From Streptomyces sp. MspMP-M5 (GTDB lineage Bacteria; Actinomycetota; Actinomycetes; Streptomycetales; Streptomycetaceae), in the NCBI RefSeq assembly GCF_000373585.1, contig NZ_KB891929.1, forward strand, positions 62,001-126,000: a DNA stretch of 64,000 bases. The letters are read 5' to 3'. The notes below the pieces were generated by a model. The model was not told the DNA's origin. It ran no database searches and worked only from the letters and a program-made list of their open reading frames with translations. Shown piece after piece: positions 16,047-25,621 of this stretch (positions are counted from its first letter, which is position 1; every line of letters starts with the position of its first letter). The position numbers and the translations under genes were made by a program.

Positions 16047-16120
16047 GCGCCGCTAGCTCAGTTGGTTAGAGCAGCTGACTCTTAATCAGCGGGTCCGGGG
16101 TTCGAGTCCCTGGCGGCGCA
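16047..16120 (+). tRNA. tRNA-Lys (CUU), copy 2
   Basis: Same cloverleaf as copy 1, anticodon CTT, no encoded CCA. A likely -10 element (TAGTAT) lies about 20 bp upstream. With its terminator it forms a 118-bp direct repeat with copy 1, bracketing 14.7 kb. Confidence 0.97.
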
Positions 16121-16130
16121 CAGACGGTCG

Positions 16131-18506: not shown

Positions 18507-18580
18507 GCGCCGCTAGCTCAGTTGGTTAGAGCAGCTGACTCTTAATCAGCGGGTCCGGGGTTCGAGTCCCTGGCGGCGCA
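18507..18580 (+). tRNA. tRNA-Lys (CUU), copy 3
   Basis: Body identical to copies 1 and 2, anticodon CTT; the flanks differ from the other copies on both sides. Confidence 0.97.
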
Positions 18581-18585
18581 CGTAG

Positions 18586-19401: not shown

Positions 19402-19770
19402 TCAGACCAGGTCGACGAGGTCCGCGATGGAGTCGACGACGTGGGAGGGGCGGAAGGGGTGGCGCTCGATACCCTCGGGGCGGGTCAGGCCGGTGAGGAC
19501 GAGGAAGGTCTGCATGCCCGCCTCCAGGCCGGCGACGACGTCGGTGTCCATCCGGTCGCCGATCATGGCGGAGGTCTCGGAGTGGGCGCCGATGGCGTTG
19601 AGGACGTGGCGCATCATCAGCGGGTTGGGCTTGCCGACGAAGTACGGTTCGACGCCGGTGGCCTTGGTGATCAGCGCGGCCACCGATCCGGTCGCGGGCA
19701 GCGCACCCTCCCGCGACGGGCCGGTCTCGTCGGGGTTGGTGGCGATGAAGCGGGCGCCGTCGTTGAGCGC
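19402..19770 (-). pseudogene. 3' part of the interrupted host HAD-IIA (NagD-like) gene
   Basis: Codes [18 protein letters not shown] through [25 protein letters not shown] and the terminal [10 protein letters not shown], the C-terminal half of a NagD-type HAD phosphatase. The reading frame upstream of 19770 no longer matches the family and belongs to the inserted element. The missing N-terminal half is at 25163-25621 on the same strand. Compared with the intact copy at 24351, about 16 residues (roughly 48 bp) between the two halves are missing altogether. The catalytic Asp residues are on the other fragment, so this piece cannot be active. Confidence 0.85.
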
Positions 19771-19773
19771 TGC

Positions 19774-20982
19774 ATCGATATCTACGAGAAGGCTCGTAGG
19801 CCGATGATCTTTGCCACCACCACTGGCGACTTCGACCTCACGACCAACGACGGCCGCTTCCAAGCCCGCATCTACGTCACCATTGCCAACAAGTTCTCTG
19901 CGGACGCCGCGCGCCGAGTCGCCCGCCAAAAGCTCGCAGATGCCACTGCGGGAAAGCCCCACAAGGGGCAGCGCGCTTTCGGCTGGAAGGACGCTGAACA
20001 CGTTGACGAGCGGGAAGCGGAACTGCTTCGGGCAGCGCGCAAAGACATCCTGAAAGGCAAGAAGGTCGCCACCGTCCATGAGGAATGGGCAAAGCTGAAG
20101 GTACGAAGCCCGCAGACTCCGCCGGGCAAGACCATCGGATACAGCAGTGTCAGGTATGTACTGCGCAACCCGCGTCTGTGCGGCTACCGCGCCTACATTC
20201 CGCAGGAGGTCCGCGAACGCTCTGGCCGAGTCGACCCCGCTGAGTGGCTAGTCGAGCGCACGGACGGGACACCCATCAAGGGGCAGTGGGAAACGATCTT
20301 CACCCCTGAGGAGTGGCGCGAACTGATTGACGTCCTCGATGCCCGCAAAAACACCGGCAAGGGGCGGAAGGTCGGCAGCACAGTCACCAAGCGCCTGATG
20401 ACGGGCATTGCCCGCTGCGCCAAGTGCGGCACCGGCCTGTCCTCTGGGATGTACACCCGAGGCACCAAGAGCTACGAGAAGTACGGGTACTACTACTGCC
20501 GCAAGGCGGATGGCGGCTGCGGGAAGTTGTCGCGCAGCGGCCCGCCGATGGAGGACTACGTGGAGAAGATCCTTCTCGGCAACCTGAGGAAGCAGGCCCA
20601 ACACGTGAAGCCTGCCGAACAGGAGGACTCCGAGCTGATCAAGGCCAAGGCCACCTTGAAGCAGATCGAGGCCGACAAGGCAGAGGCTCGGCAGCTGCGC
20701 GCCGACGACAAGCTGTCCCTGGCAGAGTTCGCACGCGAGATCAGCCGCCTTGAGGACAAGGAGAGGGAGACCAGGGAGAAGGTCTCCACCCTCTCGGCCG
20801 CGCCGGTTCGGGCCGGGTCCGCGGCGGCGCGCATCGTCCGGGAGTGGAAGGACTACACCGTGGACATGAAGCGGGAAGAGATCTTGAAAAACATCGAGGC
20901 TGTGGTGGTCAAGCCGGCTGGCAAGGGCGGCGCCCAGCGTGGAGAGTTCCGTGCGGACCTGCTTGAGATTGTGTGGAGGTAG
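19774..20982 (+). pseudogene. Large serine recombinase (integrase), N-terminal catalytic domain missing
   Basis: The frame starts inside the end of the resolvase domain ([13 protein letters not shown], then [19 protein letters not shown]) and runs through the recombinase domain ([32 protein letters not shown]), the zinc-ribbon domain (CAKCGTGL ... YYYCRKADGGCGK) and the long coiled coil (about 300-380; KATLKQIEADKAEARQLRAD). The first 100 or so residues with the nucleophile Ser are absent; in their place is the host HAD gene read backwards. An ATG at 19804 could start a stub, but it would be catalytically dead. It is followed by a strong hairpin. The right half is intact, so the loss came from the left border. 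Confidence 0.9.
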
Positions 20983-20992
20983 CCGCAAACAA

Positions 20993-21028
20993 CGAGACCG
21001 CCCCGACCTTATGGCCGGGGCGGTCTCG
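20993..21028. terminator. Bidirectional terminator after the integrase remnant
   Basis: Perfect 13-bp stem CGAGACCGCCCCG / CGGGGCGGTCTCG around a 10-nt loop, directly after the integrase stop and abutting the stop of the small minus-strand gene at 21029. Confidence 0.85.
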
Positions 21029-21148
21029 TCATGCGCGGATAATACCGAAGCGCGAGAGCAGGTCGGTGACCCACTCGTCACTTCGGAGCGGCGAACGCTC
21101 TATCTCCCACTCGATCCGCTCCTCAAGCGTCATCGCCTGGAGATCCAC
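21029..21148 (-). CDS. Possible 39-residue phage-type protein
   Basis: GTG start with GGAAGGA nine bases upstream; the product begins MDLQAMTLEERIEWEIERS and ends SRFGIIRA. The sequence is charged, helical and protein-like, and its stop abuts the bidirectional terminator shared with the integrase. Phage genomes often carry short genes of this kind next to HNH genes, and an HNH-like remnant lies just upstream. Function unknown. Confidence 0.4.
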   Translation of the reverse strand: MDLQAMTLEERIEWEIERSPLRSDEWVTDLLSRFGIIRA

Positions 21149-21847
21149 TCAACTCATTCCTTCCTTGGCGCTTGTTTGCTTCGAGATCGAGGACGCCGCC
21201 CCATGGTTGGGAGCCGATTCGGGTGTCACCCGGGACGATGTGGTCCAGGTCCGTCGCACGAGGTCCGCCGTCATGAGCGTTAACCGGGGGCTGTGGCACC
21301 CTCGTCCGGCGAGCGCATCGAGGCCCGAAAGGCCAGGTCGACGACAAGAGCAACGGGAACAACGCACAAGCGGTCACCGAACCTTGCCTGACCATCAACT
21401 GGGCCAAGCTGCACCGGCCAAGGGAGCCCGAGGCCGCATCCCAAGCCGCATAGCGCCGGGGTGCCCTGACACGTAAAAACTGAGACCCACGCCACACCGT
21501 GAGGGAGCCGCCCCGTCAAGGGTGCGACTCCCTCACTTCGTGTTGCCGCCAGGTGGACGGAAAGCGACTGAACGGGTGCGTTCGGGGCACAAAAACTGTC
21601 CCTGGTTCCTTCTTTTCTCTTACCCGTATGAGAAAGAAGGGGTAAAGGGCAGTTACTTGGCCCCTGGGTGAGAGGTCGGCCCACCGCCTGGCGGACGAGG
21701 GTGTCATGGCCCCCAGTTAATGCTTATGCAGGCGGGTTCCGTGCCGCGGACTCCAGCGTCCGACGTGGAGGCGCGAGCATCGCGCCCGCCCGGCTCCTCC
21801 CGCGCGCCCCGGTGTCTTCCAGGATGACGCGCGGGAGTTGAGCCCCA
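21149..21847. other. Gene-poor stretch of the element with an HNH-like remnant
   Basis: No intact gene. Minus-strand sequence at about 21223-21255 reads DLDHIVPGD, the first half of a phage HNH motif, but the following Cys/His half is absent, so I take it as a remnant. A 9-bp hairpin (GTGAGGGAG / CTCCCTCAC) lies at 21499-21536 and an A/T-richer imperfect inverted repeat (CCTTCTTTTCTC ... GAGAAAGAAGG) around 21608-21642. Confidence 0.4.
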
Positions 21848-21918
21848 GGCCCCGTAGCTCAGTGGGAGAGCGCCCGATTGTCGGTCGGGGGTTGCCGGTT
21901 CGGTTCCGGCCGGGGTCG
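21848..21918 (+). tRNA. tRNA-Asp (GUC)-like gene carried by the element
   Basis: Cloverleaf with acceptor GGCCCCG / CGGGGTC (one G-U pair), discriminator G, D-arm GCTC/GAGC, anticodon stem CCCGA/TCGGG with loop TTGTCGG giving GTC, and T-stem GCCGG/CCGGC. It departs from normal tRNAs in the T-loop (TTCGGTT, so the nearly invariant A58 is G) and has a short D-loop; CCA is not encoded. Discriminator G fits tRNA-Asp. It may be a phage-type tRNA or a degenerating one. Confidence 0.6.
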
Positions 21919-22066
21919 CTGGAAAGACTCTGCCTTGGGGGTGGCCTTATCCGCAGCCTCCACCGCACTGGCAGGGGCCGCCTTGCTGGCACCCGCAGCT
22001 ACAGCCGGGACCGCACTGGCAGTCGTTGGCGACAGTTCCCTCACTGGTCGGCATGGTGCCTCGCTT

Positions 22067-22375
22067 TCACGTGCCTGGGGTCGGTGGACGGCTCACTGTG
22101 GCACCTGCGCCTGTCACTCCACCACCAATCTCGGGGCGAAGGCTGAAGTTCGCCTCATTGACACGGCGTTGCCCTGATGTATCGCCATCCACTAGAGGTG
22201 TTTCTTCATCCCGGCGACGACCACGACCCGGCGAACCTTCAGGCTTTGTGCGGGTGGCATCACGCGCGGAAGTCCAGCGCTGAGGGCGCGGCGGCCCGGC
22301 GGAGGTGGGTGTCCAGGCGGAGGCCGGAGGCGCGGCATCCGGGAGAGTTGGCGTGAGCGAGCGCGCGGTGTTCAT
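22067..22375 (-). CDS. Possible small protein, unknown
   Basis: 102 residues from an ATG with a good ribosome site (AGAGGA, 5-nt spacing). The product is Pro/Arg/Thr-rich (MNTARSLTPTLPDAAPPAS at the start) with no recognisable domain, signal or membrane segment, and could be disordered. The start region is convincing, the rest is not; it may be a truncated gene like its neighbours. Confidence 0.3.
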   Translation of the reverse strand: MNTARSLTPTLPDAAPPASAWTPTSAGPPRPQRWTSARDATRTKPEGSPGRGRRRDEETPLVDGDTSGQRRVNEANFSLRPEIGGGVTGAGATVSRPPTPGT

Positions 22376-22766
22376 GGCGTCCTCTTGCTAAACCGCGAAG
22401 AAGACGAAATCCGAGGCGCCTCAAATGTACGATTTAACCTGGGGGGTGGCCCAGGTCACTTTTCGAGAAAAGACCGAAGTGTAATAGCGGCTCGGATTCT
22501 GTACGGGTTTCAAGGTCGTTAGGACCAGCGCCCTGGGCCTGACCCACCCGGTTTTTCGGCGAAGGCGCCCACGAACCAGGGGAGAGGCGACCCGACACGT
22601 TTACTGTGGGACGCGGCGAAGAATGTGATGCGCGCCCCGCCGCGCTGATGGCGACGGGGCGCGGCGCTTTCATTCCCGATCTGTACGAACCTTCAGACCA
22701 GAAATTATGTGCGCTCAATCATGGATCCTCGCGGCGGTGATGCACCGAAGTCGGGGCCGCAGGCCC
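22376..22766. other. Non-coding stretch with hairpin in the element
   Basis: About 390 bp, A/T-richer than the chromosome (GTACGATTTAACC near 22425), with no coding frame I trust. A hairpin CGCGCCCCG / CGGGGCGCG lies at 22631-22663. The left part probably holds the promoter of the minus-strand small gene at 22375. Confidence 0.35.
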
Positions 22767-23198
22767 TTAGTCGGGATTGCCCCAATCGGTACAGTAACCC
22801 ATTAGATGGTTACCTTTGAATGTGGCAACCTGGATGCCGATATTTTTGATGCCGCCACTGTACTTGACTGACACCCATCCCTCCTTGTGCTTCCCGGCGC
22901 CGGAGACCTTATTCCAAGCACCTTGCTTTGAGGTGCCGTTCATTCCCAGTACGAGGACCCGAATCGCTGCGTAGCGCCCGTCAGCCTTGCCGTCTGCCAG
23001 ATCCAACTTGACGTTGAGCGTTGACATCGGGTCGTGCCAGTTGTAGATGACCGCCCCGCCTGACGCTCCTGCGTCACCTGTAGTGCACCCTCGTTTCACC
23101 ACGGGGTCGCCTGAGGCGGCTGCCTGGGCGGCAGCTGTGGGAGTGCTCAACACCGCAATGACCGCGGCGGCAGTCATAAGTGAACGCTTGACGTTCAT
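22767..23198 (-). CDS. Small secreted protein, unknown
   Basis: 143 residues from an ATG with AGGGGGA just upstream. Clear signal peptide (MNVKRSLMTAAAVIAVLSTP, cleavage near AAAQAAA). The mature part is about 115 residues with two cysteines (KRGCTTGD and MGYCTDWGNPD) that could form one disulfide, and beta-type sequence with alternating polar residues (VSVKYSGGIKNIGIQVATF). Intact and well formed, unlike most of the element. No family recognised; similar small exported proteins are common in Streptomyces. Confidence 0.6.
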   Translation of the reverse strand: MNVKRSLMTAAAVIAVLSTPTAAAQAAASGDPVVKRGCTTGDAGASGGAVIYNWHDPMSTLNVKLDLADGKADGRYAAIRVLVLGMNGTSKQGAWNKVSGAGKHKEGWVSVKYSGGIKNIGIQVATFKGNHLMGYCTDWGNPD

Positions 23199-23353
23199 GT
23201 TCCCCCTGTGTCTTGGTACCTGACGGCCCGAAGGGGAAAGCAGCCAGCGATTTGCGAATACGCACTGCACTGACGGGCTCCCCCGAGGCCCGTCATGACG
23301 CTATCGACGTTGGCAGGACTCGGTCAACTATCGCTGTTGGAGGAGGTAACACC

Positions 23354-23542
23354 ATGCCGGGCCCTGTCCCGAAACGCAGCGATCAGCGCCGACGGCGCAA
23401 CGAGCCGGACGGTCCGGCCTTGGTGAAGGCGGGGGCCGGCAAGGCACCGCCGATTCCCCGGGCGTCAAGCGACTGGCACCCGATCGCCAAGCGCTGGTTT
23501 CAGTCCCTGAAGGACAGCGGCCAGGCCCAGTTCTACGAGTAA
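23354..23542 (+). pseudogene. Phage small terminase subunit, truncated
   Basis: ATG with a strong AGGAGG site. The 62-residue product starts MPGPVPKRSDQRRRRNEPDG and continues through DWHPIAKRWFQSLKDSGQ to FYE, the conserved beginning of actinophage P27-type small terminase subunits. A TAA follows FYE, and the next in-frame residues SDW still fit the family before homology ends, so there is both a nonsense codon and a downstream truncation. It is fused to the ATP-grasp fragment. This supports a prophage origin for part of the element. Confidence 0.7.
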
Positions 23543-23552
23543 AGCGACTGGC

Positions 23553-24149
23553 ATGTCCGAGGCTGGGCGGCGGTTCGCCGCCGCCCAGTCCCGGGCGGGC
23601 TTCCTCGGAGTCGTCGCATCTCTGCCGTGTCTGTGGATCAACCACCCGGCACGTGACCAGCAGGCCAACTACAAACCTTGGCAACTCCGCGTGGCTGACC
23701 AGCTCGGCCTTAACCCGCCGCGAACGATCGTGACGAACAACCCTGCGGCCGGCCGCAAGTTTGCCGCTGACGTTGGCGGCCCGATCATCACCAAGTCGCT
23801 TGGCGCCCCTGTAGACACGGTGGTGGTCGATCCAGCCGAGTTCGACGACTCGGTGAGGCTCTGTGCCCACATATTCCAGGAGTGGATAGAAAAGTCGCAT
23901 GAAGTCCGGTTGACCGTGGTCGGCTCGCGTTTCTTCGCGGTTGAGATCCATGCAGGCTCGGCGGCCGGTCGGATCGACTGGCGGACGGACTACGCAACCA
24001 ACACCTACAAACCCACGGCCGTCCCATCTGGAGTGCGGGAGCGTGCAGTCGCGCTCATGCGCCGCTTCGGCCTCGTCTTTGGTGCCTTCGACTTCATCGT
24101 GACTCCATCAGAGGACCCGACGCGGCCGGTCGGCACACTCGGCGACTGA
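23553..24149 (+). pseudogene. ATP-grasp peptide maturase (TgmB/MvdD-like), truncated at both ends
   Basis: 198 residues matching the middle of graspetide maturases: WINHPARDQQANYKPWQLRV, then LNPPRTIVTNNPAA, GGPIITKSLG, then VRLTVVGSRFFAVEIHAGS, and FGLVFGAFDFIVTP. The normal N-terminal domain is missing, and the frame leaves homology just before the expected FLEINP-type metal-binding motif, so it cannot be active. No precursor peptide is recognised nearby. A full family member would be about 320 residues. Confidence 0.7.
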
Positions 24150-24350
24150 CGAAGCCTACGGGCGCATGAGCAGGGGGCTCCTCCCCTGGCTTTCGTCGAA
24201 GCGCCGACTCTACTGATCCTTCCGTTGCCGCTGTGCACCGCCACAAAGGATGGCGTCCTCGGAGGGTTCGGGCTGGGTCTGGCTAGGCTGGGGGCGTCGG
24301 CACGAGGTCGTTCCGGCACCCCAGCAAGCTCATGCGTACAGGAGAACAGC

Positions 24351-25130
24351 ATGGCGGAGCGCAAGCCCATCGAGTCGTGGCTCACCGATATGGACGGGGT
24401 GCTGATGCACGAAGGCATCCCGGTGCCGGGCGCAGACGCATTCATTACGAAGCTGCGCGACTCAGGCCGTCCGTTCCTGGTCCTTACGAACAATTCGATC
24501 TACACGGCGCGTGACCTCCACGCCCGGCTGAGCCGGATTGGGTTGAACGTACCCGTGGAGTCGATCTGGACGTCCGCACTCGCCACCGCGAAGTTCCTTG
24601 ATGACCAGCATCCCGGCGGCTCGGCATACGTCATCGGTGAGGCGGGCTTGACCACCGCTCTGCACGATGTGGGCTACGTCCTCACGGACACCGAACCCGA
24701 TTTTGTGATCTTGGGTGAGACTCGAACTTACTCGTTTGAGGCCATGACGAAGGCTGTCCGGCTGATCAACGATGGCGCTCGATTCATCGCGACGAATCCC
24801 GACGAGACCGGGCCCTCCACTGAAGGTGCGCTTCCCGCGACGGGGGCAGTTGCCGCCCTCATCACGAAGGCGACGGGCAAAGAACCCTACTTCGTGGGCA
24901 AGCCGAACCCGCTGATGATGCGTACGGGCCTCAACACAATTGGCGCGCACTCCGAGACCAGCGCGATGATCGGCGACCGAATGGACACTGACATCTTGGC
25001 CGGGCTGGAAGCAGGCATGGAGACCTTCCTCGTCCTCACCGGACTGACCGCCCCAGCGGACATCGACAAGTTTCCCTACCGTCCGACCCACGTCAAGGAC
25101 TCCATCGCGGACCTGGTCGACTTCATCTGA
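24351..25130 (+). CDS. HAD-IIA family phosphatase (NagD-like), intact copy carried by the element
   Basis: 259 residues from ATG with GGAG six bases upstream. HAD motif I is [14 protein letters not shown] (Asp nucleophile and DxD), motif II LVLTNNS, the IIA cap follows, motif III is the Lys in VGKPNPLMM and motif [11 protein letters not shown]. It is full length and about 85 percent identical by eye to the N-terminal half of the host gene at 25163-25621, and similar to the C-terminal half at 19402, with less GC-rich third positions. NagD-type enzymes dephosphorylate nucleotides or small phosphorylated metabolites. It lies on the opposite strand to the host gene and should supply its function. 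Confidence 0.9.
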
Positions 25131-25162
25131 CCGCCACTGGCTCTGGCCGGTCCGGCAGACCG

Positions 25163-25621
25163 TCAGGCGGCCAGAGCAAGCCCCCCGGAGGCTGCCACAG
25201 CAGCGTTTCCGCAGGTCAGGCCCAAATACGTTTTGGGCGTGCTAGTCCCGCCGAGGACGACGTAGTCGGGGGCGTGGTCGGTGAGGATGTAGCCGATGTC
25301 GTGCAGGGCGGTGGTCAGGCCGGCCTCGCCGATGACGTAGGCGGTGCCGCCGGGCCGCTGGTCGTCGAGGAACTGCGCGGTGGCCAGCGCCGAGGTCCAG
25401 ATCGACTCCCAGGGGACGTCCAGGCCGATGCGGTCGAGGCGGGCGTGCAGGTCGCGGGGGGTGTAGATGGAGTTGTTGGTCAGGACGAGGAAGGGCTTGC
25501 CCGATTCTCGGAGCCGCTTGATGAAGGCGTCCGCGCCGGGGACCGGCACGCCCTCGTGCATGAGGACACCGTCCATGTCGGTGAGCCAGGACTCGATCGG
25601 CTTGCGCTCTGCCACTGCCAC
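25163..25621 (-). pseudogene. 5' part of the interrupted host HAD-IIA (NagD-like) gene
   Basis: Starts GTG and codes [20 protein letters not shown] through YVVLGG, the N-terminal 125 or so residues of the HAD protein with motifs I and II. After about 25247 the frame enters the element and adds 27 unrelated residues (starting STPKTYLGL) before a stop. The rest of the gene is at 19402-19770. Without motifs III and IV the product should be inactive. It lies 120 bp downstream of the aminophosphonate operon on the same strand. Confidence 0.88.
25220..25246. repeat. Right border (attR-like) with inverted repeat
   Basis: GCCCAAA-TACGT-TTTGGGC at 25220-25238 sits a few bases inside the point where the host HAD frame is lost. 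Serine integrase attP half-sites often carry such inverted repeats. No matching sequence survives at the left border. Confidence 0.5.

Follow-up and report, generated by a model that had tools for sequence, protein, structure and literature searches.

Probable repeated displacement of a core HAD-IIA gene in Streptomyces by an integrase-linked element, most likely a phage

Phage 21 and e14, which integrate into icd, and many phages that target tRNA genes rebuild the end of the interrupted gene; they are not known to restore more than its terminal codons or bases. Large serine integrases of Streptomyces phages likewise use attB sites inside coding genes, as phiC31 does in SCO3798 and phiBT1 in SCO4848, and to our knowledge neither phage brings along a copy of its target. 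In xenologous gene displacement, a foreign homologue takes over the position of a native gene. Integrases, prophages, and islands associated with dusA substitute no more than the 5' end of that gene, which becomes fused to element sequence at the junction (PMC4482086). Here, we describe a locus of Streptomyces sp. MspMP-M5 (G000 in the trees) in which a HAD-IIA (NagD-like) gene is split by an element that carries a complete second HAD-IIA gene together with the remains of a large serine integrase. The locus lies within a 64,000-nucleotide (nt) stretch of contig NZ_KB891929.1, referred to below as the window, and all coordinates are positions in this stretch. Comparison with other genomes gives good support to the conclusion that this core gene has been displaced again and again across the genus by an element linked to an integrase and most likely a phage.

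The native gene of the window lies on the minus strand and is cut at codons 123–126 into two pieces, with an intact homologue between them on the plus strand; the earlier note on this DNA, made from its letters alone, had placed both the split gene and the intact copy correctly. The following features define the arrangement:

25240–25621, minus strand: 5' part of the native HAD gene (to about codons 123–126), 91% nt identity to the native gene of genome G318
19402–19768, minus strand: 3' part of the native HAD gene (from about codon 138), 90% nt identity to the native gene of G318; Pfam PF13242
24351–25130, plus strand: carried intact HAD-IIA (NagD-like) gene for a predicted phosphatase of 259 amino acids (aa), the sole full-length copy in the genome; G+C content at third codon positions (GC3) 0.796
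19774–20982, plus strand: large serine integrase, 5'-truncated, without residues 1–98 of 501 including the catalytic serine, whose position we take from the family motif
25131–25248, no strand: right end of the element, with a terminator-like hairpin after the HAD stop codon, followed by the host-gene junction (crossover within about 25237–25248), read from the sequence

On the right, the 5' host piece matches the native gene of G318, which is closely related by rpoB, up to a point within codons 123–126, and element sequence lies beyond. The ORF at 25163–25621, which the earlier note had assigned to the host gene as a whole, is thus of host origin in only about its first 125–128 of 152 residues, the remainder belonging to the element; the minus-strand position of both parts stands. 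From this junction we infer a crossover at codons 123–126, and the right end at 25131–25248 reads as a putative attR. On the left, about 12–15 host codons are absent beside the integrase, along with integrase residues 1–98, and the integrase is without the resolvase domain, which is the first domain of large serine integrases. Both junction pieces are still broken, and regeneration of the target by junction fusion, as in dusA, is not seen here.

The carried copy is 82% identical in protein sequence to either host piece (residues 1–128 and 138–259), a little below the figure of about 85% given earlier for the N-terminal half of the host gene. At the nt level, it is 79% identical to the host pieces. 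Since the host pieces are nearer to the native gene of G318 (91% and 90%) than to the carried copy, the latter did not arise by recent duplication of the host gene, a possibility that had been named as fatal to the idea of an imported substitute. The genome (8.6 Mb, completeness rated 100) contains no other intact copy, and the next relative is a paralogue of 35% identity. It also holds that the phage-derived remainder of the element has decayed around an intact HAD gene, which is the only intact gene of a known family there. The carried protein is a predicted phosphatase of the HAD-IIA/NagD-like family: it matches TIGR01460 with 158 bits (cut-off 100), its best match in the Protein Data Bank (PDB) is "protein NagD" (E = 5.7e-70), and residues D13/D15, T46–N48, K184, and G208–D214 (except 211), which we take to be the catalytic motifs, are invariant across eight HAD copies. 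The top equivalog model, NF007762, remains under its cut-off (274 versus 368 bits).

We consider it likely that a temperate phage uses the core HAD gene as its attB and carries a full substitute, and that the prophage then decays while the substitute persists and takes the place of the native gene. In such a scheme, the large serine integrase of a temperate Streptomyces phage would target codons ~118–132 of the HAD-IIA gene as attB, and integration would split the native gene in two. Next to one end of the phage there would be a complete HAD-IIA gene, through which the lysogen would retain the enzyme. Later, most of the prophage would be deleted, purifying selection would keep the carried gene, and the native fragments and the integrase would erode, until the carried allele replaces the native gene, usually in inverted orientation. 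The phage would be the vehicle, the integrase would make each insertion, the copy would be expressed, and loss of the enzyme would be what selects for its retention.

This scheme resembles the target rebuilding of phage 21 and e14 in that lysogeny would spare the host the loss of the target gene, and differs from it in that the substitute is a full one. With phiC31 and phiBT1, the element shares a large serine integrase and an attB within a coding gene, but those two phages are not known to carry a copy of the target. As in xenologous displacement, the native gene is replaced in place; here, however, a site-specific integrase appears to supply the mechanism, and the replacement recurs at one locus genus-wide. 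The dusA elements likewise integrate into a conserved coding gene and supply sequence that possibly keeps the gene working (PMC4482086). In the present case, by contrast, the gene that is carried is complete and separate and in many instances lies on the other strand, and its native counterpart eventually disappears. All 240 INPHARED matches to the window integrase are less than 60% identical to it, and identities among the matches listed (30) are 26–30%. A literature search returned no description of such a HAD-carrying element, with some phrases too narrow to return anything and subscription journals thinly covered.

Integrase relatives were sought in 392 Streptomyces genomes and in GTDB contigs. 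Besides the window, five close relatives (68–78% identity) were identified, in G154, G127, G081, Streptomyces sp. 8K308 (L064 = G416), and WM6386 (L065 = G417), and all five have an intact HAD gene 61–95 bp from the integrase 3' end, in the same sortase neighbourhood. A second scan of the genus from a different centre led to the same integrase places. Three of the five have a complete integrase reading frame, and the G081 integrase is spread over two frames; four integrase relatives of 497–504 aa match PF00239, PF07508, and PF13408 (the last below its cut-off in G154) and so combine the resolvase domain, recombinase domain, and zinc ribbon of large serine integrases in a single protein. In G154, G127, and 8K308, the HAD gene points against its neighbours, an inversion shared with the window. 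Remnants of the native gene are found at both ends of the window element and, as a degenerate 3' part, in G127 and WM6386; the WM6386 remnant is 92–93% identical at the nt level to the best native genes, versus 79% to the intact copy of the same genome. The idea that other serine-integrase elements carry this gene is therefore borne out by all five close relatives, three of them with a full-length open integrase. The earlier picture of a single element is supported in its interpretation and too small in its scope, with the window element appearing as one stage of a recurrent gene displacement.

The extent of this recurrence was assessed in 60 HAD loci with up to 1.5 kb of flanking sequence, taken from genomes that were picked by HAD score and kinship and are not a random sample. 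In several genomes, the gene lies near a phosphonate-uptake type gene or a phosphodiesterase gene on one side, and near an ORF without known family and a sortase gene on the other. A native-type HAD gene is co-oriented with its neighbours at 31 of the 60 loci. At 25, the HAD gene is inverted. Four of these are the window, G154, G127, and 8K308; the flanks of the other 21 contain no whole integrase. Orientation is based on one or two neighbours for L092, L095, and L097 and on the majority of neighbours for L094, and a further inverted case, G383, was found beyond the 25. Two of the 21 loci retain a C-terminal stub of the integrase (G166, E = 2e-10; G394, E = 1e-5), located between HAD and the neighbouring gene in the place and orientation of the whole integrase in G154. 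The inverted loci form a graded series, from a whole integrase through a stub to none. None of the 21 shows a clear second HAD fragment within these flanks, the one weak match being in G360 (E = 0.004).

Phylogenies of HAD and of its genomic background differ. On an rpoB tree of 59 genomes (G001 is omitted, its rpoB being a 1692-base piece), the inverted label requires 15 changes, and well-supported branches force 13 of these, where each change may be a gain or a loss; shuffled labels require 19.3 on average, which indicates some clustering, as expected for sister species. The HAD tree of 60 copies requires three changes, and the 31 native copies fall into one clade together with G081 and WM6386 (100/99). 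On a larger rpoB tree of 78 genomes, 26 inverted genomes form 18 separate groups, a manual count on a tree made by a quick method, with several forks open. The sortase tree of 47 loci, from which 13 of the 60 including the window are omitted (no match or a piece of less than 400 bases), requires 11 changes, seven of them forced, and contains several of the neighbour pairs seen with rpoB. The nearby sortase gene thus behaves like rpoB, which argues that HAD was exchanged without the surrounding region. Rooting with nine outgroup genes places 25 of the 26 inverted HAD copies, together with G382 and G010, in one group within the Streptomyces copies (91/97), and the inverted G383 outside it. The sister species G000 and G289 are both inverted and close in rpoB, yet their HAD genes are 17.6% apart at the nt level, which suggests separate insertions; in other inverted sister pairs, the HAD copies are 90–95% identical, and each such pair may represent one event. 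Displacement has probably occurred a dozen or more times in Streptomyces. On the rpoB tree, G382 (L090) adjoins the inverted genomes G283 and G023.

Two other histories could be read into these trees. In the first, a single old insertion made the inverted allele, which then spread among species by homologous recombination without involvement of the integrase; this would fit with the 21 of 25 inverted copies that have no whole integrase in their flanks and with the membership of nearly all inverted copies in one gene lineage. We regard it as unlikely, since the nearby sortase gene does not travel with HAD, two of the integrase-less copies keep stubs, and the four inverted genomes that bear an integrase are scattered over different regions of the rpoB tree; moreover, the integrase-linked copies are far diverged in terms of synonymous substitutions per site (dS; 0.8–1.35 for HAD and 1.0–1.4 for the integrase) and low in GC3. 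In the second, an ancestor had two HAD genes at the locus, one of them inverted, and species lost either. Although two gene lineages do exist, this history seems extremely improbable: none of the 392 genomes has two intact close HAD copies (E <= 1e-45, six candidates scored per genome), native remnants adjoin the integrase, the inverted lineage nests within the Streptomyces copies when rooted, and the integrase-linked copies differ in composition. The second HAD matches that were recorded are fragments in the window and G127, and in G399 a single gene in two frames, in an assembly 55% complete.

The compositional difference is graded in the same way as the loci. GC3 is 0.77–0.82 in the integrases and 0.79–0.87 in the six HAD genes linked to them. 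The two HAD copies beside a stub have values of 0.82 and 0.87, the 19 other inverted copies 0.84–0.98 (mean 0.937), and the 31 native copies 0.935–0.988 (mean 0.961). This series fits arrival from a lower-GC mobile pool and subsequent adjustment to the host. The carried gene is also under strong constraint, as the earlier note had expected of it: the ratio of nonsynonymous to synonymous substitution (dN/dS) is 0.03–0.12 in 12 pairs with element-lineage HAD, compared with 0.11–0.18 in three native control pairs and 0.14–0.21 in integrase pairs, values that come from a simple counting method with dS mostly near 1 and are therefore rough. Uninterrupted homologues of the host gene are near-universal in the genus. 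An orthologue is present in 386 of the 392 sampled genomes (E <= 1e-45), and in a first sample each of 36 same-genus genomes had one full-length match, with 82–87% identity. Conservation and purifying selection together suggest that the enzyme is needed.

The phage connection emerges from the other contents of the window element:

20916–21138, plus strand: 3' end of the integrase gene with a terminator-like hairpin and the sequence after it; colinearity with phage record L163/G418 across 226 bp, at 80.5% nt identity
21156–21255, minus strand: C-terminal tail of a phage DNA polymerase gene, remainder gone (matches the end of the L163 polymerase gene at 73% nt identity across 100 bp)
21848–21919, plus strand: tRNA-Asp(GTC) within the element
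22767–23270, minus strand: ORF of 167 aa, family without assignment (no match in Pfam, NCBIfam, or PHROGs)
23354–23542, plus strand: truncated phage gene, assigned by Pfam to small terminase (62 of 139 positions) and by PHROGs to minor tail
23553–24149, plus strand: truncated ATP-grasp peptide maturase (TIGR04187 positions 84–278 of 312, below the model cut-off)

The record L163/G418, a 53.9-kb entry of IMG/VR, encodes an integrase 76% identical to that of the window and a phage-type DNA polymerase. Near its right end lies a TIGR04188 methyltransferase (below cut-off; L165 17939–19240), a placement paralleled by the truncated TIGR04187 maturase near the right end of the window element. The colinearity, the polymerase tail, and these two components of a single type of ATP-grasp system, each near a right end, make it simplest to interpret the window element as the deletion remnant of a phage like the 53.9-kb record. 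PHROGs gave no match in the ORF that contains the polymerase tail. The phage genes of the window element are all truncated, and a complete prophage at the HAD locus was not seen in the loci examined. For the fragment at 23354–23542, the Pfam and PHROGs labels conflict. Separately, the phage record contains a gene for a FabG-like 3-oxoacyl-ACP reductase (L163 10495–11250), another gene of core-metabolism type on a phage of this group.

The same data can be arranged around a minimal integrative element of two genes, an integrase and a replacement HAD (~2.5 kb), that moves on other carriers, with the phage-like genes of the window as a later insertion. Such an element would account for G154, G127, and 8K308, which retain only the integrase and HAD, 62–95 bp apart, and for the bases just before the HAD start, which look alike by eye in these three and in the stub loci G166 and G394. 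The window sequence after the integrase is, however, colinear with the phage record, and its right end resembles the peptide-maturase system of that record; furthermore, the other loci have lost most or all of their host fragments, so that larger deletions are also possible there. We therefore treat the two-gene element as a possible but doubtful alternative.

For phage-borne displacement itself, a number of observations count on the opposite side, in addition to the roughness of the dN/dS values and the double meaning of label changes. The 53.9-kb record has no HAD match, although it is perhaps trimmed at an end, given that its integrase starts at base 31. No HAD-bearing phage was recovered from IMG/VR by scans with single-copy and alignment patterns, which are exact peptide patterns of limited reach; the 13 INPHARED matches obtained by tblastn include no Streptomyces phage, and a plasmid search by tblastn gave no Streptomyces phage carrier of the gene. 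The integrase-linked HAD genes of G081 and WM6386 are in native orientation, as is the element-lineage copy of G382, perhaps through re-inversion or recombination; the orientation of G010 could not be determined. The contrast for the G127 remnant is weak (88% to the best native match versus 84% to the intact copy of that genome). The five other loci have integrase and HAD side by side, compared with a distance of 3.4 kb in the window, which leaves the original layout of the element unsettled. Finally, six of the 392 assemblies are without an orthologue and have only a paralogue of 32–34% identity, including G140 and G303, both rated 100% complete, and G245, in which the HAD locus is cut by a contig end; either the need for the enzyme is not strict, or these assemblies have gaps.

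These six assemblies, two of them rated complete, would also agree with a carried copy that is an incidental passenger retained neutrally, as would a young insertion in the window, which the little-decayed look of the host fragments allows. Low dN/dS over a long divergence, the position of the carried gene as the sole full-length copy in its genome, and the presence of the gene in nearly all genomes make neutral retention very unlikely.

Upstream of the integrase, alignments to HAD remnants start at codon 123 in G154, where 1 of 200 shuffles does equally well, and at codon 120 in G166 (3 of 200), and among the upstream remnants only these two are suggestive. Non-significant alignments start at codon 126 in 8K308 (18 of 200), codon 123 in G394 (71 of 200), and codon 118 in G081 (129 of 200); the clear remnant of G127 starts at codon 145. 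Residue 118, in the left arm of the inferred attB, is F in all 25 inverted copies and in the two natively oriented copies linked to an integrase, whereas 29 of 31 native copies have Y. Among the outgroups, Y118 is found in seven of seven genes from the next family, and F in two more distant genes and in NagD. Recoding of attB in the carried copies was considered and rejected: in integrase-linked copies, a 42-bp stretch spanning the inferred attB is not unusually diverged, with 0.20 of such stretches showing an equal or larger excess.

A tentative reading of the residue 118 pattern, about which we have considerable doubts, is that the carried HAD gene is a substitute resistant to its own integrase. 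The phage would then break the sensitive allele, bring in a resistant one, and immunise the lineage against re-insertion, amounting to a natural one-way allele-replacement drive on a core gene. Against resistance stand the unexceptional divergence of the site as a whole and the occurrence of F118 in a large native-orientation group without a visible element. The F118 pattern is present in 75 of the 392 genomes and is thus wider than the inverted group. Loci were obtained for 30 of the 75, of which 29 showed HAD (a motif search at the match found none in G165) and 19 were new; 18 of these 19 group with the G081 and WM6386 copies, which are integrase-linked, the exception being G300, and G383 alone is inverted. 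Fifteen of 22 "type II" genomes (native orientation, F118) form one clade on the rpoB tree and, for this reason, may represent a donor lineage or a single old event. Type II, considered as a second displacement lineage, was not counted among the displacements.

Core genes are generally taken to descend vertically or to be swapped by homologous recombination, whereas a mobile element here seems to replace one outright, and to do so repeatedly. In most cases, the foreign allele is left without a visible element, which calls for caution with phylogenies based on single core genes. The loci also offer a natural series of prophage domestication and make two questions testable, namely why a core gene should serve a phage as attB and whether the integrase is blocked by the substitute allele.

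Elsewhere in the window, three identical tRNA-Lys(CTT) genes are located at 1220–1294, 16047–16121, and 18507–18581, the first two of which also match just downstream; this triplet could mark duplications or old integration sites.

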